Assembly (NCBI GenBank): GCA_001247695.2
Contig: LGRX02034272.1
Coordinates: 1-64,000, forward strand
Direction of reading: 5' to 3'
DNA: 64,000 bases
Source: Cymbomonas tetramitiformis
Taxonomy: Eukaryota > Chlorophyta > Pyramimonadophyceae > Pyramimonadales > Pyramimonadaceae
Shown here: in pieces, positions 17,915 through 58,384 of the stretch
How positions within the stretch are numbered: the first letter of the stretch is position 1
Layout: the number at the start of each line of letters is the position of its first letter
Translations under genes and position numbers: made by a program
The notes under the pieces: model-generated
Told to the model about the DNA's origin: nothing
Database searches by the model: none
Seen by the model: only the letters and a program-made list of their open reading frames with translations

Positions 17915-18231
17915 TTAAGCTTTATAGCTACCTAGCATCGGGTTATTGGCCAGTGCCAATGGTTCTAACGAACAAGGGTAGCATGCAAGGTTTAAGTTGG
18001 TTAGAATAACGTTACATGTGGGTGAGAGCGGTGGCATTAGGTTCGCATTCTCGCCAAGTATGCACATTGGTCTCAACCATGTCCACACCCCCATACACTT
18101 TCTGCGCACAAAAGACAACTTTTCGATGTAAAAGTCCCTTGGTTGGTGGACTGAGTTCATTCAAGTTGATTCCGCTCCGTGCTAGGCAATCGTGAGGGGA
18201 AATCGTTCCCCTCAAATCTAGGACCCTCACA

Positions 18232-19500
18232 ACTAGCGCTCCGATACTTCCGCCATCCACGTTTATCTCACCGCATATCGGTGGGTAGTGGTTTGCAATA
18301 CCATTTTAGACTACCCCAAGCATCGACGTCCGCCGATGTCGCGGTTTGGATTGCACACGCCACGCGGGACTAGGGATGCCGACCATGCCAGTGTACCAGT
18401 GTACCAGTACACACGCATGCACAAGTAGCACTCCAACACTCGACCGCAACACCCCTCTAGCGCCACACATCGCTCGGTAATGTTTTGTTATGGCATTTTG
18501 GACTACACTTAGCATCGTCGTGCCCCTATACCCCGCCATTGGCTGTGCACCAATGCGCTAGGAGTATTCCTGGGGCACACTGCCAGTATATTAGTACGCG
18601 TACACAAGTAGCACCCCGATACTTCCGCCATCCACGTTTATATCACCGCATATCGGTGGGTACGAAGTGGTTTGCAATACCATTTTAGACTACCCCAAGC
18701 ATCGACGTCCGCCGATGTCGCGGTTTGGAGTGCACACGCCACGCGGGACTAGGGATGCCGACCATGCCAGTGTACCAGTGTACCAGTACACGCATGCACA
18801 ACAAGTAGCACTCCAACACTCGACCCTAGCACCCCTCTAGCGCCACACATCGTTCGGTAATGCTTTGTTATGGCATTTTGGACTACACTTAGCATCGTCG
18901 TGCCCCTATACCCCGCCATTGGCTGCGCACCAATGCGCTAGGAGTATTCTTGGGGCACACTGCCAGTATATTAGTACGTGTACACAAGTAGCACCCCGAT
19001 ACTTCCGCCATCCACGTTTATATCACCGCATATCGATGCACGGGTAGTGGTTTGCAATACCATTTTAGACTACCCCAAGCATCGACGTCCGCCGATGTCG
19101 CGGTTTGGAGTAGTGCACACGCCACGCGGGACTAGGGATGCCGACCATGCCAGTGTACCAGTGTACCAGTACACGCATACACAAGTAGCACTCCAACACT
19201 CGACCCTAACACCCCTCTAGCGCCACACATCGCTCGGTAATAATGTTTTGTTATGACATTTTGGACTACACTTAGCATCGTCGTGCCCCTATACCCCGCC
19301 ATTGGCTGCGCACCAATGCGCTAGGAGTATTCTTGGGGCACACTGCCAGTATATTAGTACGCGTACACAAGTAGCACCCCGATACTTCCGCCATCCACTT
19401 GTATATCACCGCATATCGGTGGGTAGTGGTTTGCAATACCATTTTAGACTACACCAAGCATCGACGTCCGCCGATGTCGCGGTTTAGAGTGCACACACTA
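18232..19500. repeat. 380-bp satellite, about 3.3 copies
   Basis: The landmark CACTCCAACACTCGACC recurs at 18,429, 18,809 and 19,189, exactly 380 bp apart each time, although individual units carry small compensating indels. Each unit contains a CCAGTGTACCAGTGTACCAG sub-repeat and TAGTACGCGTACAC. No coding potential. Confidence 0.9.
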
Positions 19501-20101
19501 AGGTGCCTAGGGGACGGAGCCACCGTGATTGCCACTGTACTCGGTATGCATACTGTTGCGTGGGAGCCCAATAGTGCATCTGTGTGTGATTGTACGAGTG
19601 CAAGCACATACGAGTACGATGAACATACATTACTTGAATTTTTAAACTTTAAAAACAGCATTTAGATCATTAATATCGAAGTTTGACACATAAATATTAA
19701 TGTGTCACAAAGTGAAAATTTCCAAAATCAGCATTTCCGTTCCCCCCCCTTGGTTATGGCACCCGATGAGGACCACATATCGGTCCCATATGTGAACTAT
19801 CGTTATGGAGCTTTAGATTGACTCATATCTTCGAACTTTATATGGGGGTACACCCTTCCAAGTCCATTTATCGAGTCGTAAATGACGGTACCGCAACTAG
19901 TCCTTTGAGAAGGACCAAGGAAATTAATTAATTTTCAGGCAAAATACCCATCAAAAGTGTGCCTCATTCTTGGGTACATTAACATGAAACTAGATGCTCA
20001 CAATAGAATAGGCACCTTTCCCGTGTCATAAATGAATTTTCTAAGCATAGAGTTGACCTCTAGAACCCAATATATAGTCGAGTCATTACATACGTTTCCG
20101 T
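19500..20101. other. Intergenic AT-rich spacer with palindrome
   Basis: A palindrome copy lies at about 19,897-19,916 (CTAGTCCTTTGAGAAGGACC). The remainder holds no gene or repeat that I recognise. Confidence 0.4.
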
Positions 20102-20703
20102 CTAGTCCTTTGAGAAGGACTAGAATGTCGGATAGTAGCCATCGGTTGCGAGCTGCGCTGCACGTTGGCACCATGCTCTTCATTGGCACCTGCAGCCTCA
20201 TAACGCGTTGGGCTGTCGCCAACTGTATGCCACCTTTCGTCGAGGCTGCGGGCACTCGCGACTCCACGCTGTACTGGATTACCGCTGGCTGGGCGCAACC
20301 AACCCAAGAAACTTGTCGGCACCTGCAACTCCACATCACACTGGGTCGCTGCAGGCTGAACATCGTCCCTTGTGGGTCCCGGCGATTCCATGCTCTGTGA
20401 GGCTACCGCCGAGGGCGCTCGGCCCTCAGCCGTGCCCACGCACTGTGTCGGCACCTGTGGCCCTAGATTGGCGCTGGCTTCGCGCCATGCCTTGCCTCGA
20501 CCACACGCTGTGTTGGCGTCTGTGGCCCCACATTGCAATGGGTGGTCACTCGTTGCACCTTGCCCACTGCTGTAGCTGCGAGCACTCGTGGTGTTGGCTC
20601 CATGTGCATGTCTCCGCGCTTCGCGAGGCCGCTCAATGTTGAAGCTGAAGCGTATTCCCCCCCCCGCTGCGGGTGGAGAGGCCATACCAGATTGAGGCTG
20701 CTT
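20102..20703. repeat. GC-rich dispersed segment, truncated by the gypsy insertion
   Basis: Begins with the palindrome CTAGTCCTTTGAGAAGGACT, then GTCGGATAGTAGCC, and continues as the GC-rich family also seen at 16.6-17.3 and 35.0-35.6 kb. It ends at the TGCTT target duplication of the gypsy element. Confidence 0.55.
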
Positions 20704-21168
20704 TGTCACGGGCATACAAATGCATATACGAAGTTTCAGAGTATTCGGATACGAATCGATATATATATCACAACCGGTGATTATGCAATACGGCCCGTGT
20801 TACGAAAACGTTTTTATTCTGTAACTAAGCTCCCAAAGGAATCGTGTTTCATCACTATATAGCACAGACTGTTCGGCTAGTTTCTCTCGTCACAGGAATC
20901 CCTGTTTTTCCCCAACCTGCGCCGCCATAAATGTCATCTCTACCGTCATCTGTCACGGTATTGTACCGACACCGTTGATTCTGTCATAATCGTTCCTAAT
21001 AATATTTCTATCGTTCACAATTCTGCCAGAGAGATAACATTTACTGATTTTGCATTCTTCATCCACGATCTCAGATTCCCTATCAATATTTCTCCCAATA
21101 TGCCGGTAATCTGAATCGGATCCCCCTTCCGTGGGGGTAATTGGCAGTCTATCTTGCCCCCTGGCACA
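20704..21168 (-). repeat. 3' LTR of the gypsy element
   Basis: 465 bp. On the minus strand it starts TGTGCCAGGGGGC and ends GCCCGTGACA. It is preceded on that strand by a polypurine tract. Confidence 0.95.
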
Positions 21169-21183
21169 ACTCTCCCCCCCTTA
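21169..21183 (-). promoter_or_regulatory. Polypurine tract
   Basis: On the minus strand AAGGGGGGGAGAGT lies directly before the 3' LTR. It overlaps the TAA stop of the methyltransferase frame, so the coding region reaches the end of the internal domain. Confidence 0.85.
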
Positions 21184-22419
21184 GGGGTGGCTTTCTCCTG
21201 ATGTCAACCCAGCATCTTCATCACCTGTATTCCTGGGAAATAATCGCTGAAATAAGGTTCTCAGTAACTTAGCAGGTATAGGATATACTGCGCGAGATTT
21301 CTGCATCCCTTGCTGATCTGGATGAGGTCCTAGTTGAGCGGTAAGGGGGTGCACTCCAGTTGCCCATTTACATGGGCACGGAGTCTGCGAGGTCCATTCC
21401 CGCAGTGGTACGCTGGGCGGCGCATTAGTCCAGATACAAGTAGGTTTCTTATACTTCTCCCCGTACATACAATATGAGCAAAACAAGGGGGTAGGTAATT
21501 GATCCACTACAGGTCTGAATCGCAAAGCATTGGGATATCGCCCTTTTGGATTTTCCAGAAACCAATAGCGCGGTCTGAGATATTCAATGATATCAAGGGT
21601 GCGTTCTACACAAGCATCTGCAGATATTAAATCTGGTGGTCCTCCAGTAGTTCGCGCTTGACTATATTGGGTACACGGTGGACTCGCCCATATTACATCA
21701 AAATATCCAGGAGGGTAATAGCTCCAATATTCCCAATCTTCAATTCTGGTGACATGCGTAGATCGCCAGAACTTATCAGAATGTAAAGATACTGTCTGTG
21801 CCTGAGGGAAGCATTCTGAGAAGGATCTTTGAACTGAGCCAGTGCCACTGAAGAGTACCAGTATTCTGATAGGTTTTACTGAAACTGGCGATAACTCAGT
21901 CACATACGCCACTTCTCCAGAATCGGTAAAGTGTTGTTCTTCCCATGAAAGACACGCACTCGCAGAGCTGTTAGACATACCCCAGAATTGCGCTGATAAT
22001 TGCTGCACTAATGTCCCTCTGCCCGCTGTCATCATCAACGCAGCATTCTGATGTCGTCGATGTTCTCTTCTCCGCGCAGCTGAATCTCTGACCTGCTGCT
22101 CCATTGCTAGGCGTCTCTCTTCAAAATCCCGCAACTGTTGTAATGGGGCACCACGCTCTAACTTATCACGCGTTCTCCACTGATCATGGGCTTTAGAGAA
22201 CCCGGTCCATCGCACCTTCCATTCCTCTATTTCTTTGCCCCTGCTCACGCGTACGCGTCGGCTCAGGATTTTCTCTACATGAGCCTCCTTCTGTCCGTCC
22301 ACCATCACTGCTTCAGGTGTCACTGTCTGCTGTCGCAGAGCGAAAGTGTCCTCTCCACCTGTGTAGGGTTTCAATCTGTGCTGCGCGAACACGTCATGTA
22401 CTCTCCAATGTGGGGGCAC
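21181..22419 (-). CDS. Integrase C-terminus, chromodomain and C5-cytosine methyltransferase
   Basis: 412 codons in a frame one base off the preceding pol frame. Residues 1-20 (PPHWRVHDVFAQHRLKPY) are the usual end of a gypsy integrase. Residues about 47-93 are a chromodomain (VEKIL...EWKVRWTGF...W). After a basic helical linker, about 185-390 form a C5 methyltransferase core: motif I LVLFSGTGSVQRSF (S-adenosylmethionine binding, 187-200), motif IV ASPPCTQYS with the candidate nucleophile Cys249, motif VI WFLENPKGR with Glu289, and a KPTCIWTN segment near 323-332 that in phage-type enzymes sits around motif VIII. A large target-recognition region is not obvious. The family methylates C5 of cytosine in DNA; activity here is inferred from intact motifs. 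The stop is TAA at the polypurine tract. Confidence 0.9.
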   Translation of the reverse strand: MPPHWRVHDVFAQHRLKPYTGGEDTFALRQQTVTPEAVMVDGQKEAHVEKILSRRVRVSRGKEIEEWKVRWTGFSKAHDQWRTRDKLERGAPLQQLRDFEERRLAMEQQVRDSAARRREHRRHQNAALMMTAGRGTLVQQLSAQFWGMSNSSASACLSWEEQHFTDSGEVAYVTELSPVSVKPIRILVLFSGTGSVQRSFSECFPQAQTVSLHSDKFWRSTHVTRIEDWEYWSYYPPGYFDVIWASPPCTQYSQARTTGGPPDLISADACVERTLDIIEYLRPRYWFLENPKGRYPNALRFRPVVDQLPTPLFCSYCMYGEKYKKPTCIWTNAPPSVPLREWTSQTPCPCKWATGVHPLTAQLGPHPDQQGMQKSRAVYPIPAKLLRTLFQRLFPRNTGDEDAGLTSGESHP

Positions 22420-25400
22420 TTCAGTCTATACGCCACTGGTGCCCCTCTGTCTGCCTCAGGCATCTCCGCCTGCAGATCGCTGTAAAAGCGTTCCGTAACT
22501 GCAACTGGACCATGCCACCGCTTGCTCAGCTTGCGGCACAAGGCTCTGTCCATCAACTTCTCTGTGAGATGTTTAGCCTCAATCCAGACCAAGTCACCTA
22601 CCGCATACTCCCGCTGCGTGTGTCGCTGATCAAAAGCGTCCCGCTGCCTGCGTTGTGCTAGCTCAAGTTTGCTGTGTGCGTCCCGCAACTGCGACGAAAA
22701 TCTCGACGCCCATTCATGTGCAGTCCCTACCCCTCCTTTTCGTCGCCCGCTGTGCAACTGAGCGGCCTCCAAGAAGATGTCAAGCTGCGACATGGGCGAC
22801 ACACCACAACATAATTCAAATGGGGTGAAGCCTGTAACATCATTACGCGAATCGTTGATTGCGAACTCTACGTTTGTAGCGTATAAGTCCCAGGACTCTG
22901 GATTGTCTTCCACAAACGATCTCAACATGTCCTCCACCACCCTGTTAGTGTGCTCTGCTTGACCATCAGAGCGAGGGTTGTAGGGCGTAGTCATCGCCAC
23001 CTTCACATCCATCAATCTCATCAACTCCTTCCAGAAGGTATCCTGGAAGCGTGGATCACGGTCACTGACTATTTTCATCGGAGCTCCATGTTGTCTCCAC
23101 ACCGTGTCAAAGTAGATACGGGCCACTGTAGCAGCAGAGCTGTCCCCAAAATTCATAGGAACCACATGTACCATTTTAGACAGTTTGCATGTAAATGCTA
23201 CAAATGCGTCATTGCCTTGCTCAGTTAAAGGTAGGCCTGTGACGAAATCCACTCCCACATCCTGCCATACCCGAGTTGGAATAGAATGCGGGTTCAGCAA
23301 TCCATCTGGGAAAGATGATCTGGGCTTCACCGCCTGACAAACTGAACAGGAGGCAACCCATTCTCCCACATCTTGGTGTGCATTCCTCCACCAGAACCTT
23401 CGCAGAACACGCTCCAGCGTTTTATCTCGGCCAGTATGGCCAGCTGTCGCTGACTCATGCGCTTCGCGCATAATAATCTCTCTCAGCGGAGAGTCCTCTC
23501 CCAGCACCAACTGAAATCTTCCCGATGCAGTTCTCCACAGTACCTCACCCACCAGACAGAATTCTTTGGTGCGGCTGTGAGGAGCACACTTTACCTTAGT
23601 GCGTAGCTCATTGAGAGGTCCATCTCTAGTATATTCGGACTTCAAGGCCTCTAAGAAAGCAGCATCAGACGCTCCTTCCTGAGAGTCACGCAACTTGGCT
23701 GCTTTGCCTGCGTGTATTATAGGTACTCGTCCTCTTGGTTGACGTACTCTTTGTACCCGCTGCTTCGATGGAGGCGCATACACCACCAGCATAGGCTGCT
23801 GTAAATCCACTAGTTTCCCATTGGAACCTTCCATCAATTGCACTGGTTCACCTTGCGCATCATGCGTGGGAATCACCTCCTCAATACGCATTCCTGCTCG
23901 CCTGAACAGGGATCTCCACTGCGGCATTCTGGACTGAATATCAGGCAGTAGAAACACCGCAGAAGTGTTCTCGGGGTCACATCGCCACTCCTGCACGTAT
24001 TTACGCAGCAAGGCCTCCACTGTCAAGTGTTTGTCTGAGAACGAGGGTTCGCACCACACATGTAACCCTCTCCACTTCTCCTGTAAGCAGTTGTGCCAGA
24101 ACCGCTTGACACGCCGATTGTTGCCATGCTCATCGCAGCAGGCGTCGACGTCAAAGTTGCCATATTTAGCCTGGATACGGTAAAATACCTCCTGCCGCAC
24201 ACGCATGCCGTGCCAGCCAACTGCCTGGAATCGTACAGACTTCCTTGGCTGCCTCTGTGATGGCAGTGGAGCTTCTGCAGACTGTTCCTGCGCTTCCGAG
24301 CACTGGTCTTCCTTCACGTCCCCTTTCAGGGCGGGAGGCACAGAACGCCTGTCCTGCGGGTCACCCTGCTTGGACACTTTGGTGTTCACTTCGCCTCGTT
24401 CTGAGGTGGCATCCCGCAAAGGAGTTTCTACATCCTCCTTCGCTCGCAACACTTGGGAGCGGGAACTCCTCCTCAATGTGCGTTCCAGTTCACCCGACTT
24501 CTGCTGAGTCGTCTGAGTGTCCTCGGTGCGACTGCTCACCTTCGCGACTTTATCTGATACCCCCTTCACTTTAGAAGTGATGCGCTTGTCCAGCGTCTTG
24601 GGTTTCAGATACTTTCCCCGACTTTTAAAGGCCAGGGTAGCCTCCATAGCTTTCTCCGCTATCTGCAAAGTGTCCACCGCGTGAAGATAGGCCTGCTGCT
24701 CTGCATGCCATGCAGGATAGCTCTTCGAGGGCCCCTCTTCGAAGATGTGGGAGGTGTCCATCGCAGCGAGCGAAGTCTTGGGCAAATCGGATTTGTCGTC
24801 CAGTACCCCCGCCTCCTTCAACCCCTCTTGTGGCGACTTGGCCACATAGTCAGGTCGGCGAGACAAGGCGTGAGGTACCAGCAATAGAGCCCCCTTCACA
24901 TATTCCATACGGGGAACACCCACCTCCACCAAGTCCATGTACCATCTCGCCTGTCGCCGAGATAGCTCATGCCCCGGCTCCATTAACCACTCTAATGGGC
25001 GGTGATCACCTTGAAGCTTGAACTCCGTAAAAATCAAATAATGTCTCCACGTCACTGTACAGCAATGATGTAGAGCACCCAGTTCTCGCTCTCCGGTATG
25101 GTAATTCTGCTCTGCCGCTGAAAATTGTCGGCTCTCATATGCAATCACCTTCAGGCCATTCCCACAGTCTTGCATAAGGACCCCGCCCAGCGCCACTCCG
25201 CCGGCGTCCGTCTGCACCAGAAAAGGAGCAGATCCATCAGCTGCCGCCTTCATATTTGGCAATGCCAGAATAGGCGCCTTAACCAGAGCAGCTTTCAACT
25301 CCTCAAAGGCCCACTGCTGCTCCGGTCCCCATGTCCAGGGTACATCCGTCTTGGTCAGCTTGGTCAAGGGCTGCGCTATCTCAGAGAAGCAGTGGATGAG

Positions 25401-26687
25401 ACGCCTATAATATCCCGCCAGTCCCAAGAACTGCCGCACGTGGGTAACATTCTCCAGCGCAGGCCAATCGCGCACTGCCGCCACCTTATCATGTTGAGGT
25501 TGGCGTTCTTCCTTCGACAGAGTGTGACCAAGAAACTTGATAGAAGACTTCAACATTTGCGCATTAGACTTCTTCAAGTATACACCCTTCTCGCGGCATG
25601 TTAACAGGAATGTACGTACCGCGGAGTAGTGCTCCTCTACGGTCCCACTGGTGTAAACACACACATCGTCAATGAAAATTCTGACGAAGGGTAAATGTCC
25701 CAACGCTCGCTGCATTCGCCGTTGATATTGTGACGGTGAGTTCTGCAAGCCTTGAGGCATTACCAACCACTCATAGGCTCCCATCTGAGTAGTAAATGCT
25801 ATCTTCTCCACGTCCTCAGGTGCCATAGGTACTTGCCAGAACCCGTCTACAGCGTCGAAGGTGGAGAAATGGGTAGCTCCCTGCATCTCGTCAAACATCA
25901 TTTGAATATCAGGTAGAGGATACCGGTCTCGAATTGTTTGTGAATTCAGTTGCCTGAAATCACACACCAGCCTAAGGACATGGGGCTGTCCTGGCTTGGG
26001 TACCATTAAACAAGGAGCCGCATACGGACTCGATGATGGTCGTATATATCCTTTCTCCACCAGTTGTTCAATGCGTTCTCGTAGTTGACGCAACTCCTCC
26101 ACAGACATCTTGTAAGGTCTTCTACACGGAGGTCCTCCTTCTCTGTCCGGCTTGAGATTAATCTTCGCCTGATCTTCGTCAGCGTGCCGAAGGTTTTCCA
26201 ATCCAGAGGGTAAAGAGTCCCGCAGCTCCTGCTCAAACTCGTCGAAGAGGTCCTTGAACTTCTTCTTCCACGCTGCAGTGGCATCCGCATCTTGCGAGTC
26301 CTGCTGCGACACAGGGTTCTTCTTCGGTTTATCGTTGGCGCCGGTAGGAATCTTCGAGATGTCCTCCTTCTCAACGGCCAAATCCTCAGCTTCCACCTTG
26401 AAAGCCGGCTCTCCGGTGGTGGTCCTCGCAGCCATCATCAACCACGCGGGCATTGAAGAAGCGTCTCCCGCGAGTCTTCGCGTTTCCGCGGCCACTAGAT
26501 GTTTCTTCAACTGCACCGCAGTGAGGAACACCTCGTCAATCAGCCCCGCACAATCCACATCTCCTCGCCGCTTCCCCTTCCTTCCTCCAGGGGCAGCACT
26601 GATTCCAGGATTACACCCGGAAATGGTAACCCTCTCTGCACCGCCTCCTTTCCTTTTGTTAGAAAAGGACACTGAACCATTGCCATC
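22371..26687 (-). CDS. pol: Pol polyprotein: RT, RNase H, Dam-like domain, integrase
   Basis: About 1,438 codons directly after, and in frame with, the TAA that ends the protease frame; there is no ATG at the start. Numbering from the GTG at 26,672: RT about 180-400 (DFRQLNSQ, FIDD at about 333-336), RNase H about 480-605 (Asp489 in TDAGG, Glu528/530, Asp556 in GDHRPLEW), and a Lys/Ser/Glu-rich linker 605-815. A Dam-like domain spans about 818-985 (FDVDACCDEHGN, then WCEPSFSD where NPPY/F is usual). Integrase zinc finger: His1072, His1079, Cys1109, Cys1112. Integrase core: Asp1142, Asp1204, Glu1240, a DD35E spacing. The frame ends with TGA where one base appears to be missing relative to the continuing PPHWRVHDVF frame. 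All RT, RNase H and integrase catalytic residues are intact. Confidence 0.95.
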   Translation of the reverse strand, partial: DGNGSVSFSNKRKGGGAERVTISGCNPGISAAPGGRKGKRRGDVDCAGLIDEVFLTAVQLKKHLVAAETRRLAGDASSMPAWLMMAARTTTGEPAFKVEAEDLAVEKEDISKIPTGANDKPKKNPVSQQDSQDADATAAWKKKFKDLFDEFEQELRDSLPSGLENLRHADEDQAKINLKPDREGGPPCRRPYKMSVEELRQLRERIEQLVEKGYIRPSSSPYAAPCLMVPKPGQPHVLRLVCDFRQLNSQTIRDRYPLPDIQMMFDEMQGATHFSTFDAVDGFWQVPMAPEDVEKIAFTTQMGAYEWLVMPQGLQNSPSQYQRRMQRALGHLPFVRIFIDDVCVYTSGTVEEHYSAVRTFLLTCREKGVYLKKSNAQMLKSSIKFLGHTLSKEERQPQHDKVAAVRDWPALENVTHVRQFLGLAGYYRRLIHCFSEIAQPLTKLTKTDVPWTWGPEQQWAFEELKAALVKAPILALPNMKAAADGSAPFLVQTDAGGVALGGVLMQDCGNGLKVIAYESRQFSAAEQNYHTGERELGALHHCCTVTWRHYLIFTEFKLQGDHRPLEWLMEPGHELSRRQARWYMDLVEVGVPRMEYVKGALLLVPHALSRRPDYVAKSPQEGLKEAGVLDDKSDLPKTSLAAMDTSHIFEEGPSKSYPAWHAEQQAYLHAVDTLQIAEKAMEATLAFKSRGKYLKPKTLDKRITSKVKGVSDKVAKVSSRTEDTQTTQQKSGELERTLRRSSRSQVLRAKEDVETPLRDATSERGEVNTKVSKQGDPQDRRSVPPALKGDVKEDQCSEAQEQSAEAPLPSQRQPRKSVRFQAVGWHGMRVRQEVFYRIQAKYGNFDVDACCDEHGNNRRVKRFWHNCLQEKWRGLHVWCEPSFSDKHLTVEALLRKYVQEWRCDPENTSAVFLLPDIQSRMPQWRSLFRRAGMRIEEVIPTHDAQGEPVQLMEGSNGKLVDLQQPMLVVYAPPSKQRVQRVRQPRGRVPIIHAGKAAKLRDSQEGASDAAFLEALKSEYTRDGPLNELRTKVKCAPHSRTKEFCLVGEVLWRTASGRFQLVLGEDSPLREIIMREAHESATAGHTGRDKTLERVLRRFWWRNAHQDVGEWVASCSVCQAVKPRSSFPDGLLNPHSIPTRVWQDVGVDFVTGLPLTEQGNDAFVAFTCKLSKMVHVVPMNFGDSSAATVARIYFDTVWRQHGAPMKIVSDRDPRFQDTFWKELMRLMDVKVAMTTPYNPRSDGQAEHTNRVVEDMLRSFVEDNPESWDLYATNVEFAINDSRNDVTGFTPFELCCGVSPMSQLDIFLEAAQLHSGRRKGGVGTAHEWASRFSSQLRDAHSKLELAQRRQRDAFDQRHTQREYAVGDLVWIEAKHLTEKLMDRALCRKLSKRWHGPVAVTERFYSDLQAEMPEADRGAPVAYRLKCPHIGEYMTCSRSTD

Positions 26688-28462
26688 TTAGTCCAGCGTA
26701 ATGGGAGATAAGCTGCGTAGCCACTTCCCTCCCAACACCATGTCCACGGCGATGCCCAGGGGTAGCACCCGCATAGCCATAGATTGCTCAGTATAGGTCC
26801 ATGTCGTGATCCTGGCAGTGAACTTAGAATAAGCCACATGACCAGTCGTCTTGACTGAGCCATCCGCCAGAGTCACACGCATAGCGGGTCCACTTCGCGT
26901 AGTCAACTTACAGCGTCTGGCGCAGTCTTCAGATACGAATATATCTGAAGCTCCAGAATCCACCAGCACCTTGACACGATGTTCCTTCAAGTACGCGAAG
27001 AATACCAGAAGTAGGGGTCCATCTGGATCTTGTGCAGAAGCTAAGTATTCAGTGGATCCCCAGCGTACACTACCATCGCTGCACACCCGCTCACATTTAA
27101 GTGGGTCATCATCATCTTCCTCATTATCATCCAATGGGTAGCTCCCTCCAAGGTCATCATCATCCAGAGGGTGACTATCCAACACGGACAGTTGCGCGTC
27201 CACGGTGGTTGAAGGTGATACATGAGTAGTAGTTGCAGCGTCGTTGTGGTCCGCAACCGATTTCAAGTCTTGATCTTCCGCTGCCATCATTTGCTGCGTG
27301 AAGTTTAGGTCGTTATCGGAAGTGGACATCTGTTCATCCGCTGGTGCATGCGTATTAATCGGAGATTCTGAAACCTCCGGTACCGACAATGGAGGGGTTG
27401 TAGCACCTACCGGCCCTCCAGAATCATCGCCTTCAGATGGAGTATCACCTGAATTAATCGGTACCTCAGGCATATCCTCCGCGAACATCTCTTGATAAAC
27501 TGCGGCTGGGTCTGCTTCTTGCTGAATCTCTCGAAATCGGTGTACTCGATATAAACTACACCACGCATCAGGAATTCCAGGGATGTCCCCCCCAGATCCT
27601 GGTATCCTGCCCGTATCAGATATCGCCGCTGATGGGCGTGCCACAGGAGATTGCAAGGATTCTAGCACCAGTAGAGTTCCAGAATCGTCACGCACAGAGA
27701 TGGGCTTATATCTTTTCCTCACACGCTTCCACCCCTCCAACTCCCACTGTCTGCTGCCTCTTGGAGTGGAGGTCTCCTGAGACATAGCGTGTAGTTGCTC
27801 TTCCATAGACAACTCTTCCCAAGCGTACCTTAAAAGGGTAGCTAGAGGCATCGCCAAATCCAGAGCAGTCAAACTCCGGCTGCGATGTAATTCACCAAAA
27901 TCCACCACACCTCGCTGAAGTAGGTTATCAACGTGTGATGTGATCATTGATTTCCTGGTACATACCGGTACCACACCCCCTGCAGCGTGATGTGCGAGAG
28001 GTAGGTCTGCCATTGTCCGCATCATATCCATATTGTTCCTTCTGTTTAGGAACCTAATTGGAATATTGCGTCGCCGCCGTCCATTAATAAGGTCCTTGTC
28101 CAGGTCCTTCTGTATGTCAGCAGCAGATACTTTCTGTCGCAGCTGTTTCCGAATCCGCTGCATCAGAACCTCCATCGAGGTCGACCTCCCCTTACTTCTC
28201 CACTGCCACGCGGGTAAACGCTGTGACTGTTCCGTCAAGAGGGGCGCGTACACATGATTGTACATCCATGTGCCCAACACTGCAAAGTGCCGAGGCATAG
28301 GATCACCTTCTTCAGGTGAAACTCTCAGCTTACTGCTGAAAGTCAGTGGCGAGCTTGTCGCCACCGAGAAGGGTGATTCATCACCCTTCCTCCTCAGAGA
28401 TAGTGATTTCCTCGGAGTTGCACAACTCCGCACCAATAACCGCCAGCTGCTCGGAGCACCCT
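26688..28462 (-). CDS. Aspartic protease with long N-terminal region
   Basis: A frame of about 590 codons, open from about 28,462. It overlaps the in-frame extension of gag by about 90 bases in a different frame, and it has no ATG near its start (the first Met codon is about 55 codons in). The retropepsin-like domain is C-terminal: VLVDSGASDIFVS (active-site Asp, residues about 491-503 counting from 28,436) and LGGKWL near 568-573. The upstream 480 residues are unusual: a basic/hydrophobic part resembling no gag or pol domain I know, then an acidic Asp-rich stretch (about 425-447). The frame ends ITLD-TAA and the next codons are pol in the same frame. It probably needs recoding from gag and readthrough into pol; that is inference. 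Confidence 0.85.
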
Positions 28463-28530
28463 ACCAAGGCCGCCAAGGATTCCACGGCCTCTCCATCCAT
28501 CTCTACCAAGCTCTCGATCTCCGCCTTTAA

Positions 28531-30705
28531 CTAGACAGGTGCCCACTCAGTGTCCTCATTGCGCGACAACGCCCAGAACAACGCCGCCACTTGTTCTCGG
28601 TTTCTAGCTAAACGAGGGGGTGCGTTTGCCTTCCACGCAGCCAACTTCACCGCGTCCGTACAGTCTCGCACCAGATGGTCGGGACTTTGACACGCGTAGC
28701 AGTTTCTCACTCGCTTCGGATAGGTCAGGGTTGTTGTCGAGGCCGGGGGCGATGGTCGAACAGAGGTCGGCGCTGCGGCGAGCTCAGCGTGCGTGGCCGC
28801 CATCAATCGAGGGGGCTCCCGAGAGCGGCTTCGGAAAAAGGACCTGGAGGGTGACGGAGATGTAGAAGGGGAATTCCATGAGCGGCCAGTTCGTTCTCCA
28901 CTCCTGTTGGATTGAGCCTGAGCCGCCTTCTTCTCTTTGCGCGACTCGATGTTTTTGGCAATCTCCAGCACTTTTAAGATCGCCTGAGTAACATCTCGGG
29001 GCGTCGCCTCCTCCTTCATCCTCTCTTCCCACACATGCGGCTCGGAGAGGTCCAGTTTGATTCTTCGCAACTCTTCGCCCACCTTGTCAGTGTACGTGAG
29101 TCCCCTCCAGAATATGTATGAGAACTCCGACTCAGAGACTTGTACGCACCCTTGAACGACCTTCGCCATGAAGTTCACTGTCTTGTGGCGATTGGTCAGA
29201 CGCGAGTGGTAGGCGTCAGCGGACTCATCTTTCTTCTGACCAATCTGTAGGTTGTCTCGAAGAGTTTGCAGCTCCGCCACCGGAAGGGTGCTCACAGCCA
29301 GATCCCCCAGAAATATGTCGGGGTCGCTGTACCGGAGACGCCAAGCTTCTGATGTTCCGGAACCACCACCAGCTCTCTCCATGTACTCCTTCTGTTCCGT
29401 TCCCAACGCAGTCTCGGTCACTGTCCAGAGCACCTCTGCGATCGAAGATTGACGCCCCTCTCCCGCATAGCAACTCGCCTGAGAGAACGCCCTTAGTACC
29501 ACCTTCTCGTTGAGGAGCTTGTGCAGATTCCTCGCAAAGGTTTCCAACTCAGTAATGGCCTTCTCTTTACTCAGCTTTTCCGCGGAAGGGAAGCGGGTCA
29601 GCTTTTCAACGAGGCGGTCAATGTTGCTCTGCACCTTGCTCTCCAGATAAGCCGCCTTATCGCCAGGGTCGTGTTCTCCTTGTCCAGGAGGGCGTGGGTT
29701 AAAGACCTGAGCGTGTGGAGAAAGGCCTGGACGAGCGTGAGGATGTGGCGCAACCGGTCCTGCGAAATAGGGACTCCGGTGTTGCGGCGCATGCAGTCCT
29801 GAATGAAGGGAATGTCCATGACCTCCTGCAGAAGATCCCGCTGCAGCCGCGCTGATCTGCGGAATCCCAGAATGAACAGCCACACCGGGAGTAAGTCCGA
29901 CACAGGGCGTCCCAGGTTGCACAGCAATGCCAGAAGGATGTCCGACAGGAGGCACCCCAGATTGAACAGCGAGGCCGGGGGGGACTCCAATGTTTGATAG
30001 CCCAGGTGGAGCAGCAAGGGCAGGAGGGACTCCAGCAGGTTGTACTCCAGATGGTACCGATGAGTCTCCTGCGTGTGGTATTACTGCCGATGAGGTCGTC
30101 GAAGTGTTCGCAGTAGCCACCGGAATACGCGTTACCATCGGGTCATTAAATATAGGCGTATTGGTCAGAGCCACTGATAATGATGGCGCCCTGACCATTG
30201 ATGAGGAAGGCGCGGCCGAAGAGGATGGAGGCGTCGCAGGAGCTTCCAAGGCCGGAAGGTTCCTCTCTCTCCGGCACTCGTCTACGTACCATTGACTTCG
30301 CTGCACCTCGAACCAGGCTGCCAGGCAATCTCGATCCAGCATGGAGATCTGCTCTTCAAGGGGCCAGTCTGGGATTTCCATCCAGCTTGGTGACATCACC
30401 CCCCTTCCTCCAGGACTGCGGTGATACTCGCGTAACACCGTGTCCACCGCGTTCTTGTTCACCATCATAACATAAGTGGGGACAGCGGGGGATAGGAGTA
30501 AGGCGGGGGAACCAGTTATCAACCCTCCAGCGGAGATGTACTCGGTGAGGGGCATACCGATCAACGTCAGGGCCTTGTAGAAGAGGTTATCGCCGAAGGG
30601 CCCCGTGGCTGCCAATCCAGTGGCCGTGGGCATGTCAAACTGGAATTCAGAATATCCAGGCGGCGTAGGCGTCCACAAGCTCAACCCATCCGCAGTGACC
30701 AGCAT
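28531..30705 (-). CDS. gag: Gag with CCHC zinc knuckle
   Basis: 724 codons from an ATG at 30,705, overlapping the end of the upstream frame by 25 bases. Residues 1-150 are an unassigned N-terminal domain. Then comes a Pro/Gly/Val-rich low-complexity region with near-repeats (GVPPGLAVQSGVPPVG). A helical gag capsid-like domain spans about 340-600. A single zinc knuckle, CYACQSPDHLVRDC (CX2CX4HX4C), lies near the C-terminus. The frame ends in TAG followed in frame by 49 sense codons to TGA, and the protease frame overlaps that stretch. This layout suggests readthrough and/or frameshift expression. Confidence 0.9.
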   Translation of the reverse strand: MLVTADGLSLWTPTPPGYSEFQFDMPTATGLAATGPFGDNLFYKALTLIGMPLTEYISAGGLITGSPALLLSPAVPTYVMMVNKNAVDTVLREYHRSPGGRGVMSPSWMEIPDWPLEEQISMLDRDCLAAWFEVQRSQWYVDECRRERNLPALEAPATPPSSSAAPSSSMVRAPSLSVALTNTPIFNDPMVTRIPVATANTSTTSSAVIPHAGDSSVPSGVQPAGVPPALAAPPGLSNIGVPPGLAVQSGVPPVGHPSGIAVQPGTPCVGLTPGVAVHSGIPQISAAAAGSSAGGHGHSLHSGLHAPQHRSPYFAGPVAPHPHARPGLSPHAQVFNPRPPGQGEHDPGDKAAYLESKVQSNIDRLVEKLTRFPSAEKLSKEKAITELETFARNLHKLLNEKVVLRAFSQASCYAGEGRQSSIAEVLWTVTETALGTEQKEYMERAGGGSGTSEAWRLRYSDPDIFLGDLAVSTLPVAELQTLRDNLQIGQKKDESADAYHSRLTNRHKTVNFMAKVVQGCVQVSESEFSYIFWRGLTYTDKVGEELRRIKLDLSEPHVWEERMKEEATPRDVTQAILKVLEIAKNIESRKEKKAAQAQSNRSGERTGRSWNSPSTSPSPSRSFFRSRSREPPRLMAATHAELAAAPTSVRPSPPASTTTLTYPKRVRNCYACQSPDHLVRDCTDAVKLAAWKANAPPRLARNREQVAALFWALSRNEDTEWAPV

Positions 30706-33302
30706 CGCTCTTCCTCGGTGCGATCCACTATATCCGCCAGGAGGATAGTGTGGGGGTCCAGAAGGAGGTCGACGAGGAGGTTCAGATTGATCTTCATCAT
30801 CTTCTCCTTCTTCTGCGCCACCGTCTGGGGGAACGCCACTGGGACCTCCGCCCTCCGCTGATCTCCTAGGTGGTGAGTGGTCACTCCCATCCCGCCAGTT
30901 GACTTACGGGGCGCCCCATCGTACGCCTTTTTGCGATCCACTGCCTTCCACTTCTCTTTCGAGATTCGCCGCCAGTGTTCCTCCTCGGTCCCAATGCTGT
31001 CATTCGCCACCGCTGGAGAAGAATCACTTCCATCAATGACGATGGTGTCGAGGGAAGACTGCCGCATCCTGGCCAGTTGTCGACATGCTACACCTGATTG
31101 TGGGTCAGGATGTACAGGGTCAATACTCTCTCGCAGTTATCGAAGCTCCTCCACCGACATCTGGTAAGGTTTTCTACTAGGAGGAGGCTCTGCATGGTTG
31201 TCCATCTCGAACGAGACCTTGGCCACATATCCTTCCGCCCGCTGCGTCCCCGATTTAGGGTTAGTCGAGTCACACACCTGAGTCGAGGCTCCCACTATCT
31301 CAGTTACCACAGCCGAGTGATGCGACTCGCTTAGGAAACCCAGCTTGGTCGCCTCCTCCATCGTGAGTCCCTGAGGAGACTTGCTCATGGCATCCTTCAT
31401 CGGGGGGAACTCCACTGTTATGAAGCCCAGCTTGATCGCCTCCTCTATCGTGAGCCCCTCAGAGGACTTGCGCCTGGCCTCCTCAACTCGGGCGATCTGC
31501 GACAAGCGATCCTCAGGTGAGGGTGGTGGTTGCGACATCCGCGTCTCTCCTGGCGTCTGACCCAGAGATACTTCAGCAGAAGGTTCTCCACCAGCGTTTC
31601 TAGGCTGTAGCTGCTGCGTCTTTGCAACCACTGCGGGTAAGGATAAAGATGGCGAGCTCTGCGTCGCTCCTGGCGTCTGACCCATAGATACTTCAGCAGA
31701 AGTTTCTCCACCAGCGTCTTCAGATTGTAGCCGCTGCAACTTAGCAACCACTGCGTCGCTGATGGTCTGGGTAAGGTCCGCCACCCCCTGTGACCCAGCC
31801 ACACTGTGACCACTGCCCGAGCCCGAACCTGCGCGTTCCACCAGCCTGCGCTTTCTCGCCTTCGCATCTTTCCTTGCTCGGGATCTGTCTGATTCACCAG
31901 AAGAAGAACTCCCAGGTGAGTTTGAGTCGTGCCGGTATGGCAGATTATGTCGAGCCCAAGTATATGGCCCGGAGGAAATGCGTGTTCCAAGGTCTCTTAC
32001 CCTTCGGGCTGGCGGCTGACCGTCTTCACGACCTCGAGCGCATGACTCTTCGCTGTCGTTATCAGGATATTGCGTGGCGTTGATCACCACAGTGCGTCCC
32101 AACTTCCCTGTCTCGCCCTCTGACTCTGTCGCAGTCGGAGACGGAGGAGCACCATCAGATACAGGAGGTGAATCAGATACTGCGGAGACAGTCGAAGAGA
32201 CCATAAATACCCCTGATACATTGCTCGGTTCCGTAGAAGACTGCGTCAATGCGGATGTCGTTGCCTCGTGGGTATGCGTAGTCGCCATCGCCTGTGCGTT
32301 AATGCGCGCACCCGGCACCTTCGATATATCACCAGCATTTATGCGCATACCCGCAACGCCCATCTGTACATTGGTAGGCAAGTCTTCCACGACAGGGAGT
32401 TGACCAGCATCCACGGTACGCGCATTCTCCAGGATGTCTACACGCATAGCCTCCGTAGTGTGTGTCTCGTCGGCTGGGTTGCGCACTCCATCCAGTGTGC
32501 CCACACTCACACGCATAGTCGCCGCCTCGTCCACCACACGACTAGGCCCTGGCATAGGCGAGTGAGCCCATCCTGCGGACATAGGAATGGGAGCTCCATA
32601 CATTGGTCTGCTGCCAAGTTCCTGTGTGTACCCTATTGCCTGCTGGTACGGAGTAGGGTACTGCACGTTCCTGAAAGGGTAATGTCCCGTCCAGGTATGC
32701 AGAGGTAAAGGTGCTGCCATACTCATTGGCACAGCCGTTGGTGTAACAAACTGGAGTTGCTGTACTGACTGATCTGCTGCCTGTGGGTACCCCTGCAGTG
32801 TTGGCCCCTGATATACTCCATTCTGTACTGTAGGGAATGAATACGCTGCGGATGTGGGAGCCATTCCATACATTGGAGAATAAGCTGCAGCTGGGTGTGA
32901 ATACTGAGCTGCTGCTACTTGGGGTATGTGCTGCAGTCCGGTGTAGGTTCCCGGTACTCCTGTCACTGCTGTCGAAGTTGGAGGGGGAGGATATTGCACA
33001 CCCTGCGCGTGTGTGTACTGTACTGCTGCTGACGGTTGTGCATACCCTGGCGTGTCAGCAGCTGCAGGCGAGACTTGGTATTGTACGGGCCCTCCCTGCA
33101 CGTATGTGTGCTGTACTGCTGCTGACGAACCGACGGCTGAGGTGTACTGCTGCCCGGGTTGCATATAATAGTGTGATCCTGAGGGCGCACCATAACCTAG
33201 ATAGGGTATCTCAGCATTAGCTTGATAATCGGGATTAGTCTGTGGTGTGCCCCTGAATATTCCACCCGACGTCTTATACGTGTATACGTCTGTGCCACTC
33301 AT
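30681..33302 (-). CDS. Extra 5' ORF: prion-like, Tyr/Gln/Pro-rich protein with RT-derived tail
   Basis: ATG at 33,302, 721 codons to an in-frame TAA at 31,134-31,136, then 150 further sense codons to TGA at 30,681. The first 250 residues are Tyr/Gln/Ala/Pro/Gly-rich with repeated AAVQYTHAQG-like units, resembling prion-like domains. The middle is Ser/Thr/Glu-rich. Near the C-terminus are two diverged repeats, VVAKxQxLQ..AGGEpSAEVS and EGLTIEEAIKLGF/QGLTMEEATKLGF. The tail EPPPSRKPYQMSVEELR matches the N-terminal edge of this element's own RT (PPCRRPYKMSVEELRQLRERI), with TAA in place of the next Gln codon. No enzymatic domain. It may be an accessory structural or RNA-binding protein; function unknown. 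Confidence 0.75.
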
Positions 33303-33359
33303 AGCCAGAGTCCAGATGTATATACAACGTCAACTATCCACAGAACAGTCCACCCAGTA

Positions 33360-33690
33360 GGTTGTCGTTAACGTTGAAAACTGTCCCGACCCGTGCAGGA
33401 TGGGTTTGTGTGCGCCACACACGAAGCTATTTTCTGTCTTCGAACCGTCAATATACTATTCTGGAATGGTACTCTGGTCTCAGAATCCGTTATATTCGAC
33501 GTTAAGCCGTCAAGAACACAGGATACGGGTTGTCGTTACTGGTACGGACTAGCCCGACCCGTGCAAGATGGGTTTTGTTCCGCCACACACGTCGCTATTT
33601 TCTGCCTTCGGACCGTCAATATACTATTCTGGAAAGGTACTCTGGTCTCAGAATCCTTATATTCGACGTTAAGACGTCAAGAACACAGGA
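33360..33690 (-). repeat. Tandem duplication in the gypsy 5' leader
   Basis: Two copies of an about 155-160-bp segment (landmarks GACCCGTGCA(A/G)GATGGGTTT, CCGTCAATATACTATTCTGG, ACGTCAAGAACACAGGA) lie between the primer-binding site and the first ATG. Leader duplications can carry packaging or promoter elements; function here unknown. The remainder of the leader, 33,691-34,111, holds no ORF. Confidence 0.8.
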
Positions 33691-34111
33691 CGTGATACGG
33701 CCCTGAGTGTTAAGAGCCTGTCGTTACGTTGTCAGTGAATATTCTGAACGTTGTACTGCATCCCTGAAGGTTTCCGTCAATATTCACGTTCAACTAGTAA
33801 AAGTAAAGTACGTTGTAAGGTCCCACGGACGATCGGAGCATATTTTTCAAAAAGCCCATGAACGACATGTTTGACCTTTGCAGTCGTATGAAAATAAGCA
33901 CCGAACGTCCTGAACGATGTATGATCTCTAGAGGCTCGTAGTCGTCAAAAATACTTTTCCATGGATAAGTTTGACATATACAAACGGAAAAGTAACGACT
34001 AAGAGCACATTCCCCCCCAGAACATACTGTGCGCTTTGAAGCCGCTTACGCCAAAGAAAGCCGAGTGCTGTTACCCTGCGCGAATAGCATAACCGAAGGC
34101 AGCACTCGCCA

Positions 34112-34123
34112 CATCTGATACCA
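34112..34123 (-). promoter_or_regulatory. Primer-binding site (tRNA-Met type)
   Basis: On the minus strand TGGTATCAGATG starts three bases after the 5' LTR end. TGGTATCAGA is complementary to the usual 3' end of initiator tRNA-Met. Confidence 0.9.
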
Positions 34124-34126
34124 ATT

Positions 34127-34590
34127 TGTCACGGGCATACAAATGCATATACGAAGTTTCAGAGAAATCGGATACGAATCGATATATATATCACAACCGG
34201 TGATTATGCAATACGGCCCGTGTTACGAAACGTTTTTATTCTGTAACTAAGCTCCCAAAGGAATCGTGTTTCATCACTATATAGCACAGACTGTTCGGCT
34301 AGTTTCTCTCGTCACAGGAATCCCTGTTTTTCCCCAACCTGCGCCGCCATAAATGTCATCTCTATCGTCATCTGTCACGGTATTGTACCGACACCGTTGA
34401 TTCTGTCATAATCGTTCCTAATAATATTTCTATCGTTCACGATTCTGCCAGAGAGATAACATTTACTGATTTTGCATTCTTCATCCACGATCTCAGATTC
34501 CCTATCAATATTTCTCCCAATATGCCGGTAATCTGAATCGGATCCCCCTTCCGTGGGGGTAATTGGCAGTCTATCGTGCCCCCTGGCACA
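34127..34590 (-). repeat. 5' LTR of the gypsy element
   Basis: 464 bp with TG..CA ends. On the minus strand it contains CTATATAG at 34,277-34,284 (TATA-like) and AATAAA at 34,235-34,240, about 40 bases downstream, a compact promoter/polyadenylation arrangement. About 99% identical to the 3' LTR. Confidence 0.95.
34277..34284 (-). promoter_or_regulatory. TATA-like box in the 5' LTR
   Basis: CTATATAG on the minus strand, conserved in both LTRs; the likely start region for genomic RNA. Confidence 0.5.
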
Positions 34591-34595
34591 TGCTT

Positions 34596-35822: not shown

Positions 35823-36822
35823 TCAGAGATTTGTGCCGGCACTCTCCTTGTCCATCGGTGCTGCTGTCTGCTGCCATCCCGGTGTCAACCACCCGAAGTA
35901 GTAGACCATGTCGGCGTCTGCTGTGGGGTCGATGTAGGCGTGTATTGCCGAAGACAGCTGCACCCACCCCCCGAAGAAGCATACTTTTTCCATCACTACT
36001 CCCACTGCACGTGCGCATGTAGTGGCACCCTTTCGGGTGCAGTGGGCTGTGTAATGCCCCCCTTCCGGAGGGATACACCCCACGTGCCCCAAGGTACAAG
36101 CAATCCACTCGTTTGCATCAACGGTCTTGAACTGCTTCTTCTTGTCACACGGTAGCCTCCAGTAGCTGGCAGTGTCTGCTGCTCTTGATGTACTTGTCGA
36201 AGCAGCCTGCAGCCAATCTTCATCCCGAGTCTTCTCCCACCGATCGAGCAGCTCGTGCAGCTCTGACACCCCCCCCTGTGGGATGCAGAGCCTCCTCTTA
36301 CTCAAGAGGTGGTTCTTGCATTTTCCCTTCTTGAGCACGATCGACAGTCCGTTGCTGTCCCTCAGCAAGCTCTCCCGCAGCATCGCCGTGCCTGTCTGCG
36401 GTCTGCGGAACGTTACAAACGCCACAACAACGTACACACAAGCACGGAGGAGTGTCCGTTGTTTTTCAGTCGCAAGAGGCAACTGAAAAGCAGCTTTGTG
36501 CACGCACCTTACTGCCGAGGCCGGTAAATAAGTCCTCACCGTCTCAGTGACGTTCTGCTGCTCCGCTGCCGCTGTCTGCATCGCCGTCATGCCCTTCACA
36601 GCACGTGCGACAGCCCGGCCCTTCGCCGCCCCCTGAAAGCTGAAGTCCTTGTGGAAGCATTTGATGGCCGGCAAGTACGGCTGAAGGGAGGTGCCCTTCA
36701 CCGTACCTGCTTTCTGTAGGGCGGCCGTGTACAGCTGCACGGTGGCTGCCGACGGCAGTCACTGCAAGTTCTCCTCTGTGCAGAACTTCACGAACTTCTT
36801 CCAGTGCCCCTCGTATTTGTCG
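35823..36822 (-). pseudogene. Tyrosine recombinase of the DIRS element
   Basis: The main frame runs from 36,740 to TGA at 35,823 (305 codons). The core-binding part extends upstream to about 36,822 (KYEGHWKKFVKFCTEENLQ) across one TGA. Catalytic residues are visible: first Arg in TFRRPQTG, HxxR in AHCTRKGATT, the later Trp in GGW, and the nucleophile Tyr in HAYID. This enzyme class joins the cDNA circle to the genome without target duplications. Apart from the single TGA the domain looks complete. Confidence 0.88.
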
Positions 36823-37359: not shown

Positions 37360-37960
37360 ATTGCCCCGGCCAGTACGGTGCCACCACCGTCGCCGCTGCT
37401 CCTTATTCTCGCAGCTTGTGAGCCACTTCATCCAGTAGACTCCACGAAGGGTTCACCTAGTTGTGTTCCCCCCGCCAATCGTACGCCAGCGAGTCCACCC
37501 CCTCGCAGCCCGGGCCGTGCCAGGCACTGTAGTACCTCGGCAGCTGAGCCGAGATCTCGGAGGCGAAGCGGTCCACGGAGTGCTCGCCCCACTGCTCCTC
37601 GGCGTACTTGAACCACCTCCCGTTGATCCTCCACTCGTCGAGGTCCTTGTCTCGCGACAGCCGATCCGCCCACTGGTTGGCTTCGCTGCGGATGTACCTC
37701 GCCTGCAACTCGATGTCGTGTAAGTCGAGGAGCAACCAGAGCTTCCGCATACGTCGCATCAGCTCCGGGTTTCGTCACGTGAAGTGCGAGAGCATCGCCA
37801 CCACCGCCTGGTTGTCGCAGTACAGCCGTACTACTTTCCCCTCTAGCTCGGAGAGGAACGATCTGACCGTCTTGTAGACCGCCTCGAGCTCGAGGTGGGT
37901 GATGTGCAGCTTCTGAAGCTCGTCGCTTCAGAACCCGCGTGCCTCCTTATTCAGGTTCAG
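37360..37960 (-). pseudogene. RNase H and downstream Dam-like segment of the DIRS element
   Basis: RNase H pieces: HTDSSLFAWGG, THLELEAVYKTV, LYCDNQAVVAML, and YIRSEANQWADRLSR. They are separated by TGA at two positions (GF-TGA-SDEL and HFT-TGA-RNPEL). After it comes VDRFAS...YYSAW...GVDSLAYDW...N-TAG-VNPSW and VAPYWPGQSWF, the Dam-like (NPPW-type) segment known from DIRS elements. Here TAG stands where relatives have Trp, a sign of decay. Confidence 0.85.
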
Positions 37961-37999
37961 CACCCCTCCCCAAGCAAACAGGGAGGAGTCGGTGTGCAG

Positions 38000-57739: not shown

Positions 57740-58212
57740 CACTTCTGGAACTAGTTTGTCGCTCGCACGTCATCGAGCGATCCATCGACTGATCGTAGGG
57801 TAGCAGTGCTCTCATAGCCCAAATGGTACTTTTTGCCACGTCACTTAATAGTCTTGCCACGTCACTTTGTAGTTTTGAGACCTCATCCTCAACGCTGCGC
57901 TGCGCTGCGCTGCGCTGCTCGCTGCATGTCTGGCATGGCATATCATGGTCATTGTCATATCATGGTCACTGTCATATCATTGTCATGTCTTGTGATGTCG
58001 CTCGCTCGTCATCGACAACCTGATCGTAGGGTAGCAGTGCTCTCATAGCCCAAATGGTACTTTTTGCCACGTCACTTAATAGTCTTGCCACGTCACTTTG
58101 TAGTTTTGAGACCTCATCCTCAACGCTGCGCTGCGCTGCGCTGCTCGCGGCATGTATGACATGGCATATCATGGTCATTGTCATATCATGGTCACTGTCA
58201 TGTCATGTCTTG
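57740..58212. repeat. Two tandem copies of an about 230-bp repeat
   Basis: CGTAGGGTAGCAGTGCTCTC through CAACGCTGCGCTGCGCTG recurs at about 57,796 and 58,026. Followed by CATATCATGGTCA short repeats. These join the start of the complex array. Confidence 0.75.
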
Positions 58213-58384
58213 TCAGGTCTTGTCGCTCGCTCGTCATCGACAACCAATGGTGATTTGCCATTTGTGCACTTACAAAAGTTGTATTGCAATGGCATCGTTG
58301 AGCTGGCATGTTCTGATTGGCTTTCCCGATAGTGGGTGCACATGGTAAGGGCCCTGCCAAAAAGCGTCAGGTAGGAAGGATGGT

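Follow-up and report, generated by a model that had tools for sequence, protein, structure and literature searches.

Retrotransposons that encode a DNA methyltransferase (DNMT) have been described in Symbiodinium, in a long interspersed nuclear element (LINE) and a DIRS element, and in Klebsormidium, in a gypsy element with a Dnmt3 domain (de Mendoza et al. 2018, PMC5890265), and de novo CG methylation by retrotransposon DNMTs was reported in the same paper. PMC5890265 and PMC6338049 both cite Dam domains for DIRS elements, and PMC6338049 further describes Ty3/Gypsy and DIRS elements that encode DAM and DCM, in several groups that include the green algae. A 2025 survey (PMC12344493) reported orphan DNMTs, some of probable viral source, and does not name Cymbomonas in its available portion; the available portions of PMC12695648 and PMC9998398 hold nothing further on the matter. 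Burns et al. (2015, PMC5741210) found three scaffolds of Cymbomonas tetramitiformis with more than 10,000x coverage and homology to a chromodomain, RNase H and a cytosine DNA methyltransferase. Here we describe a Ty3/gypsy long terminal repeat (LTR) retrotransposon in a 64,000-nucleotide stretch of the genome of C. tetramitiformis, a marine green alga of the Pyramimonadales (contig LGRX02034272.1, positions 1 to 64,000, hereafter the window), which carries a chromodomain and, as an integral part of its polyprotein, a virus-like C5-cytosine methyltransferase domain (the C5 domain), an assignment supported by copy number, a shared reading frame, selection, structure and a phylogenetic tree. The three highly covered scaffolds are very probably these elements. 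An earlier reading of the letters of the window, hereafter the original prediction, had pointed to the uptake of cytosine methyltransferases by retrotransposons in some dinoflagellates and charophyte algae.

A methyltransferase domain at the end of a gypsy polyprotein

The element spans 20704-34590 on the minus strand, well beyond the interval 21181..22419 that the original prediction had given for it. The hallmarks of a Ty3/gypsy LTR element are all present, namely LTRs, a target-site duplication, a primer site, a polypurine tract and the order protease-reverse transcriptase-RNase H-integrase. The 5' LTR (TGTGCC...GTGACA, 464 bp, 34127..34590) and the 3' LTR (465 bp, 20704..21168) were found by self-comparison and their exact ends were read; they are 98.7% identical over 467 aligned bases and are 5 substitutions and 1 indel apart. 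An exactly matching target-site duplication, AAGCA in the minus-strand reading, flanks them at 34591..34595 (5' flank) and 20699..20703 (3' flank). Past the 5' LTR lies the primer-binding site TGGTATCAGA (34114..34123), which we take to be initiator-tRNA-Met-like, and at the other end the polypurine tract GGGGGGGAGAGT (21169-21180) adjoins the 3' LTR on one side and a TAA stop codon (21181-21183) on the other.

A chromodomain (22117..22281; PF00385, E 1.9e-6, above the cut-off) stands at the integrase C-terminus, as in a chromovirus, and one more domain lies behind it. Profiles, alignment and a predicted fold identify this last domain (239 amino acids [aa], 21184..21900) as a compact C5-cytosine methyltransferase in which motif I, LVLFSGTGSV (21832-21861), is followed by intact SPPC (21673-21684, within SPPCTQYS) and ENP (21547-21555); its activity would be the methylation of cytosine. 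The match is significant at the level of the family: PHROG 757, "DNA methyltransferase", matched the window domain with an E value of 1.9e-13, and in a 42-sequence alignment, made of the window and 41 of the 120 relatives listed in a protein search, 34 sequences matched PF00145 at E 0.01 or better, while another comparison gave PF00145 a match above its cut-off in the relative P0248 (E 2.2e-5). The catalytic Cys, the second Pro of motif IV and ENP were invariant in 42/42 sequences, and the first Pro was kept in at least 90%; the candidate catalytic Cys and Glu had been called intact in the original prediction, and they are.

The AlphaFold model of the C5 domain (predicted local distance difference test score, pLDDT, 88) ranked with C5 methyltransferases in a structure search, in which the best matches were DNMT3A/3B, followed by HhaI- and HaeIII-type DNA enzymes. 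The best viral match was A0A2P0VN45 of Tetraselmis virus 1 (E 2.4e-21, template modelling scores 0.80/0.88, 34% identity over 223 columns). Comparison of profile A1 with the sequences of solved structures gave 40 matches, of which the best was of the DNMT2 type (tRNA methyltransferase/DNMT2, E 9.8e-6) and the next were weak matches to DNMT1 (best E 0.0053). Capture of a DNMT3 was rejected because no DNMT3 was present among these 40 sequence matches, though DNMT3 chains lead by fold. Close to one window-family copy lies another C5 domain (L108:293-907), a divergent second copy with 38% identity.

The original prediction had one frame running from the integrase C-terminus through the chromodomain into the C5 motifs. 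Such a frame exists as a 414-aa open reading frame (ORF; 21181-22425) that begins in the integrase C-terminal tail; in the window copy, however, it is separate from the pol frame, the two parting in an overlap at 22371..22425. The window holds one damaged copy, and other copies show the undamaged arrangement. Twenty stretches were fetched from the host genome, 11 of which hold full-length pol in one frame, and in all 11 the methyltransferase was in the pol frame and pol was free of stops. The frame was unbroken from the protease through pol in 7 of the 11, with a total of about 2,420 codons, and the Gag region, judged by coordinates, formed a single frame of about 1,550-1,620 codons in three of the six copies in which it was examined. 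Unbroken copies encode Gag and then a single Pol of about 2,420 aa, in the order protease, reverse transcriptase, RNase H, Dam-type fold, integrase, chromodomain and compact C5-cytosine methyltransferase. The claim that the stop coincides with the polypurine tract and that the domain is integral to the element is upheld by the abutting TAA and by the frame shared in 11/11 copies, which together rule out an ordinary host gene lying past the end of the element.

The Gag region of the window copy is in two frames. Its 5' part is a 730-aa ORF (31137..33329), which gave no Pfam match and whose main stretch has a counterpart in an ORF of 6 copies, at 56-61% identity; a 790-aa Gag ORF (28531..30903) follows in a different frame and has a CCHC zinc knuckle (28657-28704; PF00098, E 3.2e-4). 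A 590-aa ORF (26688..28460) with a retroviral-type aspartyl protease (26715-26990; PF13975, E 2.2e-9) is parted by a single stop, in the same frame, from the 1438-aa Pol ORF (22371..26687), in which Pfam matched reverse transcriptase (25518-26003), RNase H (24927-25331), integrase H2C2 (23319-23492) and, below the cut-off, the integrase core (22974-23252; PF00665, E 1.1e-5). At its end (31120-31184) the first Gag-region ORF repeats, with 80% identity, the start of the pol region (RPY.MSVEELR, 26068-26132); this is a duplication internal to the element.

Between RNase H and integrase lies a Dam-type domain (23688..24242), which the original prediction, right as to the C5 domain and the chromodomain, had missed along with the frame break of the window copy. 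The profile match (PF05869, 23931-24194, E 4.1e-8) and the fold of the model (pLDDT 81) both fit a Dam-type N6-adenine methyltransferase. Judging from the alignment, the catalytic motif IV, (D/N)PP(Y/F), has been lost in the window family: its place (24039-24053) reads CEPSF, not NPPY, in the window and in 11 aligned copies. NPPY/F was present in 20 of the 28 relatives with an aligned Dam region, and 11 of the 20, not all of them independent, also showed both C5 motifs. The relative P0239 (a cluster of 13 sequences) shows the opposite loss, with NPPF in its Dam-type domain and a truncated C5 domain that ends early after motif IV and has no ENP.

Copies, selection and relatives

A search of the host genome (851.7 Mb, 25,745 contigs) with the window protein gave 9,451 loose first-look candidates and at least 101 matches, the window included, all at 96% identity or more; internal stops were counted from the list in 11 of the 101. 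The original prediction had proposed a search for other copies, and these matches place the domain well beyond the present insertion; they were found through the C5 domain itself, and copies lacking it were not searched for. The C. tetramitiformis protein CYMTET_10182 (P0010) is present in the genome at 100% over 372 aa and defines a second family, with 9,168 candidates, at least 110 matches at 95% or more and stops in 6 of 110. PF00145 gave 124 matches in the genome, many of them short and covering that portion of the model to which the compact domain aligns; a minority were long and resembled ordinary methyltransferase genes or their exons. The 5' regions of 12 copies were fetched, and both LTRs were complete in 6. 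Over about 462 bases, the two LTRs of these six copies were separated by 0, 1, 1, 1, 2 and 1 substitutions, with a gap in addition in one pair, and an exact 5-bp target-site duplication was present in 5 of the 6. Because the LTR pairs differ by only 0-2 substitutions, the family, which is high-copy, has been recently active.

Selection was measured as the pooled ratio of nonsynonymous to synonymous differences per site (pN/pS, Nei-Gojobori); the copies are mutually related and the pooled pairs are not independent. When the window was compared with 22 copies, pN/pS was 0.12 for the C5 domain, 0.02 for the chromodomain and 0.22 for the linker, and comparison with 11 copies gave 0.12 for reverse transcriptase/RNase H, 0.09 for the Dam-type domain, 0.04 for integrase and 0.64 for the pol spacer. 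Among the copies the corresponding values were 0.09, 0.05 and 0.18 for the first three regions and 0.03, 0.18, 0.12 and 0.66 for the other four. In single pairs with 4 copies, Fisher p ranged from 8e-5 to 9e-7 for the C5 domain and from 0.18 to 0.37 for the spacer. The comparison of C5 domain, chromodomain and linker drew on 27 sequences, the window and 26 fetched stretches in which some loci occur twice (L107, one codon longer, was omitted); 23 were distinct and 4 had a stop. The C5 domain is under purifying selection, with pN/pS of about 0.1, as is the reverse transcriptase.

The protein search gave 207 relatives, the best 120 of which were listed. Those at the top of the list include C. tetramitiformis and metagenome proteins with a chromodomain and a C5 domain, and lower ranks hold stand-alone proteins of about 230-260 aa. 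A profile of the stand-alone relatives matched at least 5366 of 8000 scored proteins at E 0.001 or better, and the 120 of these matches that were listed bear no virus or organism name. The metagenome proteins may be viral. A scan of IMG/VR with a single sequence found no relative, and scans with alignments found relatives in at least 583/600, 594/600 and 593/600 candidate stretches. The C5 domain also matched 17 annotated phage records at 26-34% identity. The original prediction of a virus-like domain that is not a DNMT3 agrees with this company of phage, viral-contig and metagenome proteins and with Tetraselmis virus 1 as the best viral structure match.

An unrooted tree of 98 C5 domains was built with a random sample of stand-alone proteins and 17 chosen viral rows; it contained no DNMT1, DNMT3 or Tetraselmis virus 1 sequence, and chromodomain rows were labelled by a word pattern upstream of the C5 domain. 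One branch (ultrafast bootstrap 99; Shimodaira-Hasegawa-like approximate likelihood ratio test, SH-aLRT, 97) parted 28/28 chromodomain rows from 17/17 viral or phage rows, the remaining 53 rows belonging to neither group. The same retrotransposon side was recovered in a quick tree of 171 rows (SH-aLRT 95). The profile search with tree placement that the original prediction had called for is answered by the PHROG 757 and PF00145 matches and by this branch. The tree fits a single uptake by the retrotransposon lineage from a virus-type family, a direction that the tree does not itself establish, and a methyltransferase lineage of virus type is the probable source of the C5 domain. Trees of integrase and C5 domain for 18 sequences agreed where supported, except for the row P0007, the shift of which suggests a domain swap.

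The IMG/VR contig L109 was the best match to P0067; PHROGs matched 2 of its 8 long ORFs tested (methyltransferase and HNH nuclease), and Pfam weakly matched 1 of 7 ORFs tested, again the methyltransferase. On the IMG/VR contig L116 a compact C5 relative (708-1322) lies near a canonical C5 methyltransferase (2663-3757; PF00145, E 1.3e-49). P0108, a stand-alone relative on a 29-kb contig, has a basic alanine-rich N-terminal extension. In Bacillus phage CM1 (L186:717-4712) four neighbouring genes carry the annotation DNA methyltransferase, and one of the four belongs to the compact family.

Possible roles of the C5 domain

We favor, at a probability of about 0.6, the reading that the C5 domain, of virus type and kept by selection, methylates cDNA or an insert of the element itself and the DNA nearby. 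The domain would enter the nucleus as part of the integrase or with it, the integrase, chromodomain and methyltransferase perhaps still being joined after processing; it would then methylate cytosines of the cDNA or the fresh insert and of the DNA around the insertion site, and the chromodomain would hold it at marked chromatin, presumably to the benefit of the element. Transposons are a classical target of cytosine methylation, and an element with its own methylating enzyme would reverse that usual role.

Several results weigh against this reading. PF00145 matched the window copy itself with E 0.0028, under the gathering score, and neither the canonical motif VIII (QxRxR) nor motifs IX/X were recognized by eye in alignment A1, in which a conserved block with an invariant YC and K sits where motifs VIII-X are expected. 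The copy in the window is damaged, with its chromodomain/methyltransferase frame out of the pol frame. The viral donor is deduced from similarity, with an unrooted tree and with most stand-alone relatives lacking an organism name. Finally, no clear CpG depletion or excess of CpG transitions, as a sign of self-methylation, was seen in comparisons of the element with its flanks and among copies. CpG observed/expected, compared with no significance test, was 0.82 in the element (C5 ORF 0.71, pol 0.77, LTR 1.22) versus 0.885 and 0.879 in the flanks, and the CpG transition ratio was 0.84 for the window against 19 copies and 1.27 among copies. The lack of a clear footprint speaks against a strong CG effect, and the original prediction's proposal that the enzyme might methylate copies targeted by the chromodomain to marked chromatin finds no clear backing from it as far as CG is concerned; the specificity of the C5 domain need not be CG.

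The anatomy and the selection data would also fit a self-restraining element, in which the C5 domain silences the copies of the element and thereby keeps their number and the damage to the host low, or an enzyme that works in trans, on host genes or on other elements. The near-median expression of transcripts from the over-represented scaffolds, which the authors read as tight regulation (PMC5741210), points the same way. We nevertheless consider this unlikely, as at least 101 and at least 110 matches in the two families and LTR pairs with 0-2 substitutions have an unrestrained look.

Somewhat less probable still is a protective role, in which the methyl mark would shield the cDNA from a nuclease or sensor, whether the host's or that of a co-infecting virus, the Dam-type domain serving the same end on another base. 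Some virus-encoded methyltransferases protect DNA in this way. The Tetraselmis virus 1 protein as top viral structure match and the two methyltransferase folds per polyprotein, with both motif sets in the 11 partly non-independent relatives, are consistent with protection, and an anti-viral function has been suggested for the methylases of retrotransposons (PMC6338049); loss of the Dam catalytic motif in the window family argues against it.

We give no more credence to the possibility that the C5 domain has ceased to methylate DNA and serves the integrase as a tail, either structural or for binding DNA or RNA, or methylates RNA as DNMT2 does. Such a role would accord with the DNMT2-type enzyme as best solved-structure sequence match, with the unrecognized motif VIII and the unclear CpG footprint, and with the constraint on the Dam-type domain (pN/pS 0.09 with CEPSF) despite its motif loss. 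The invariance of the catalytic Cys and ENP throughout the 42 aligned sequences and the lead of DNMT3A/3B and HhaI-/HaeIII-type DNA enzymes among the fold matches speak against it. A chance passenger, that is, a one-off insertion of a methyltransferase gene beside a retrotransposon, is suggested by the junction frame break of the window copy alone and is refuted by the frame shared in 11/11 copies, by the two families with about 100 near-identical matches apiece, and by the occurrence of both domains together in long polyproteins of public protein sets.

Beyond methylation of its own DNA by the C5 domain, a reasonable possibility, at somewhat less than even odds, is a green-algal retrotransposon lineage with adenine N6 and cytosine C5 methyltransferases in one polyprotein, the C5 enzyme coming from an algal-virus lineage and related families keeping or losing one activity each. 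If so, the element would write its own base-modification pattern onto its own DNA, and metagenome proteins hint that the lineage may occur in further hosts. An abundant and recently active family with an intact C5 domain next to a chromodomain, together with sister families unlike one another in the methyltransferase motif that they keep intact, offers a natural comparison for what a retrotransposon gains from methylation, and the element may mark a route by which viral DNA-modifying enzymes enter eukaryotic genomes.

Surroundings of the element and comparison with described systems

Elsewhere in the window, a tandem array of about 380-bp units (18228-19550) lies about 1.1 kb beyond the 3' LTR. 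Near the element, minus-strand ORFs at 35823-36758 and 37957-38831 resemble by eye a tyrosine recombinase and a DIRS-type reverse transcriptase; the two ORFs tested, 35826-36758 and 38106-38831, gave no Pfam match. A cysteine-rich 489-aa ORF (55273-56742, minus strand) with a WSC-like segment by eye is possibly a host gene, and a GC-rich low-complexity repeat at 58203-59315 is open in several frames on both strands.

Neither this element nor a polyprotein that combines Dam and C5 domains was found described in the open-licence literature, as judged by titles and the beginnings of abstracts, which is not proof of absence. The scaffolds of Burns et al. are those closest to home; the element, its domain order, its origin and the Dam-type domain are not described in the available part of that paper (PMC5741210). 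KnitGypsy-Dnmt3 of Klebsormidium nitens (PMC5890265) resembles the Cymbomonas element: it too is a gypsy element with LTRs, its Pol includes a cytosine methyltransferase whose key residues are kept, and purifying selection is reported. It differs, by its description rather than by sequence comparison, in a Dnmt3-related domain and a DIRS-like repeat structure, and the available text mentions no chromodomain; the Cymbomonas element has a compact virus-type C-terminal domain behind a chromodomain, ordinary paired LTRs and an extra Dam-type domain. SymbioLINE-Dnmt and SymbioDIRS-Dnmt3 of Symbiodinium (PMC5890265) are likewise high-copy retrotransposons with a DNMT domain, but they are LINE and DIRS elements, with a domain of an orphan lineage in SymbioLINE and of Dnmt3 type in SymbioDIRS, again compared by description only. 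Known retrotransposon Dam domains share the placement of a Dam-type adenine methyltransferase inside a polyprotein (PMC5890265, PMC6338049); in the available portions DAM is cited for DIRS, and Dam and C5 in one polyprotein are not described. On the viral side, the putative cytosine DNA methyltransferase A0A2P0VN45 of Tetraselmis virus 1 is alike in structure, but is a viral protein of 218 aa. The phage methyltransferases of PHROG 757, such as that of Bacillus phage CM1, are also compact C5 enzymes, with 30-32% identity over 87% of the domain in the best records, but are encoded by separate phage genes and fall on the opposite side of the supported branch. DNMT-bearing retrotransposons are known, and the present element, with its architecture and its probable viral origin, is a new variant of them.
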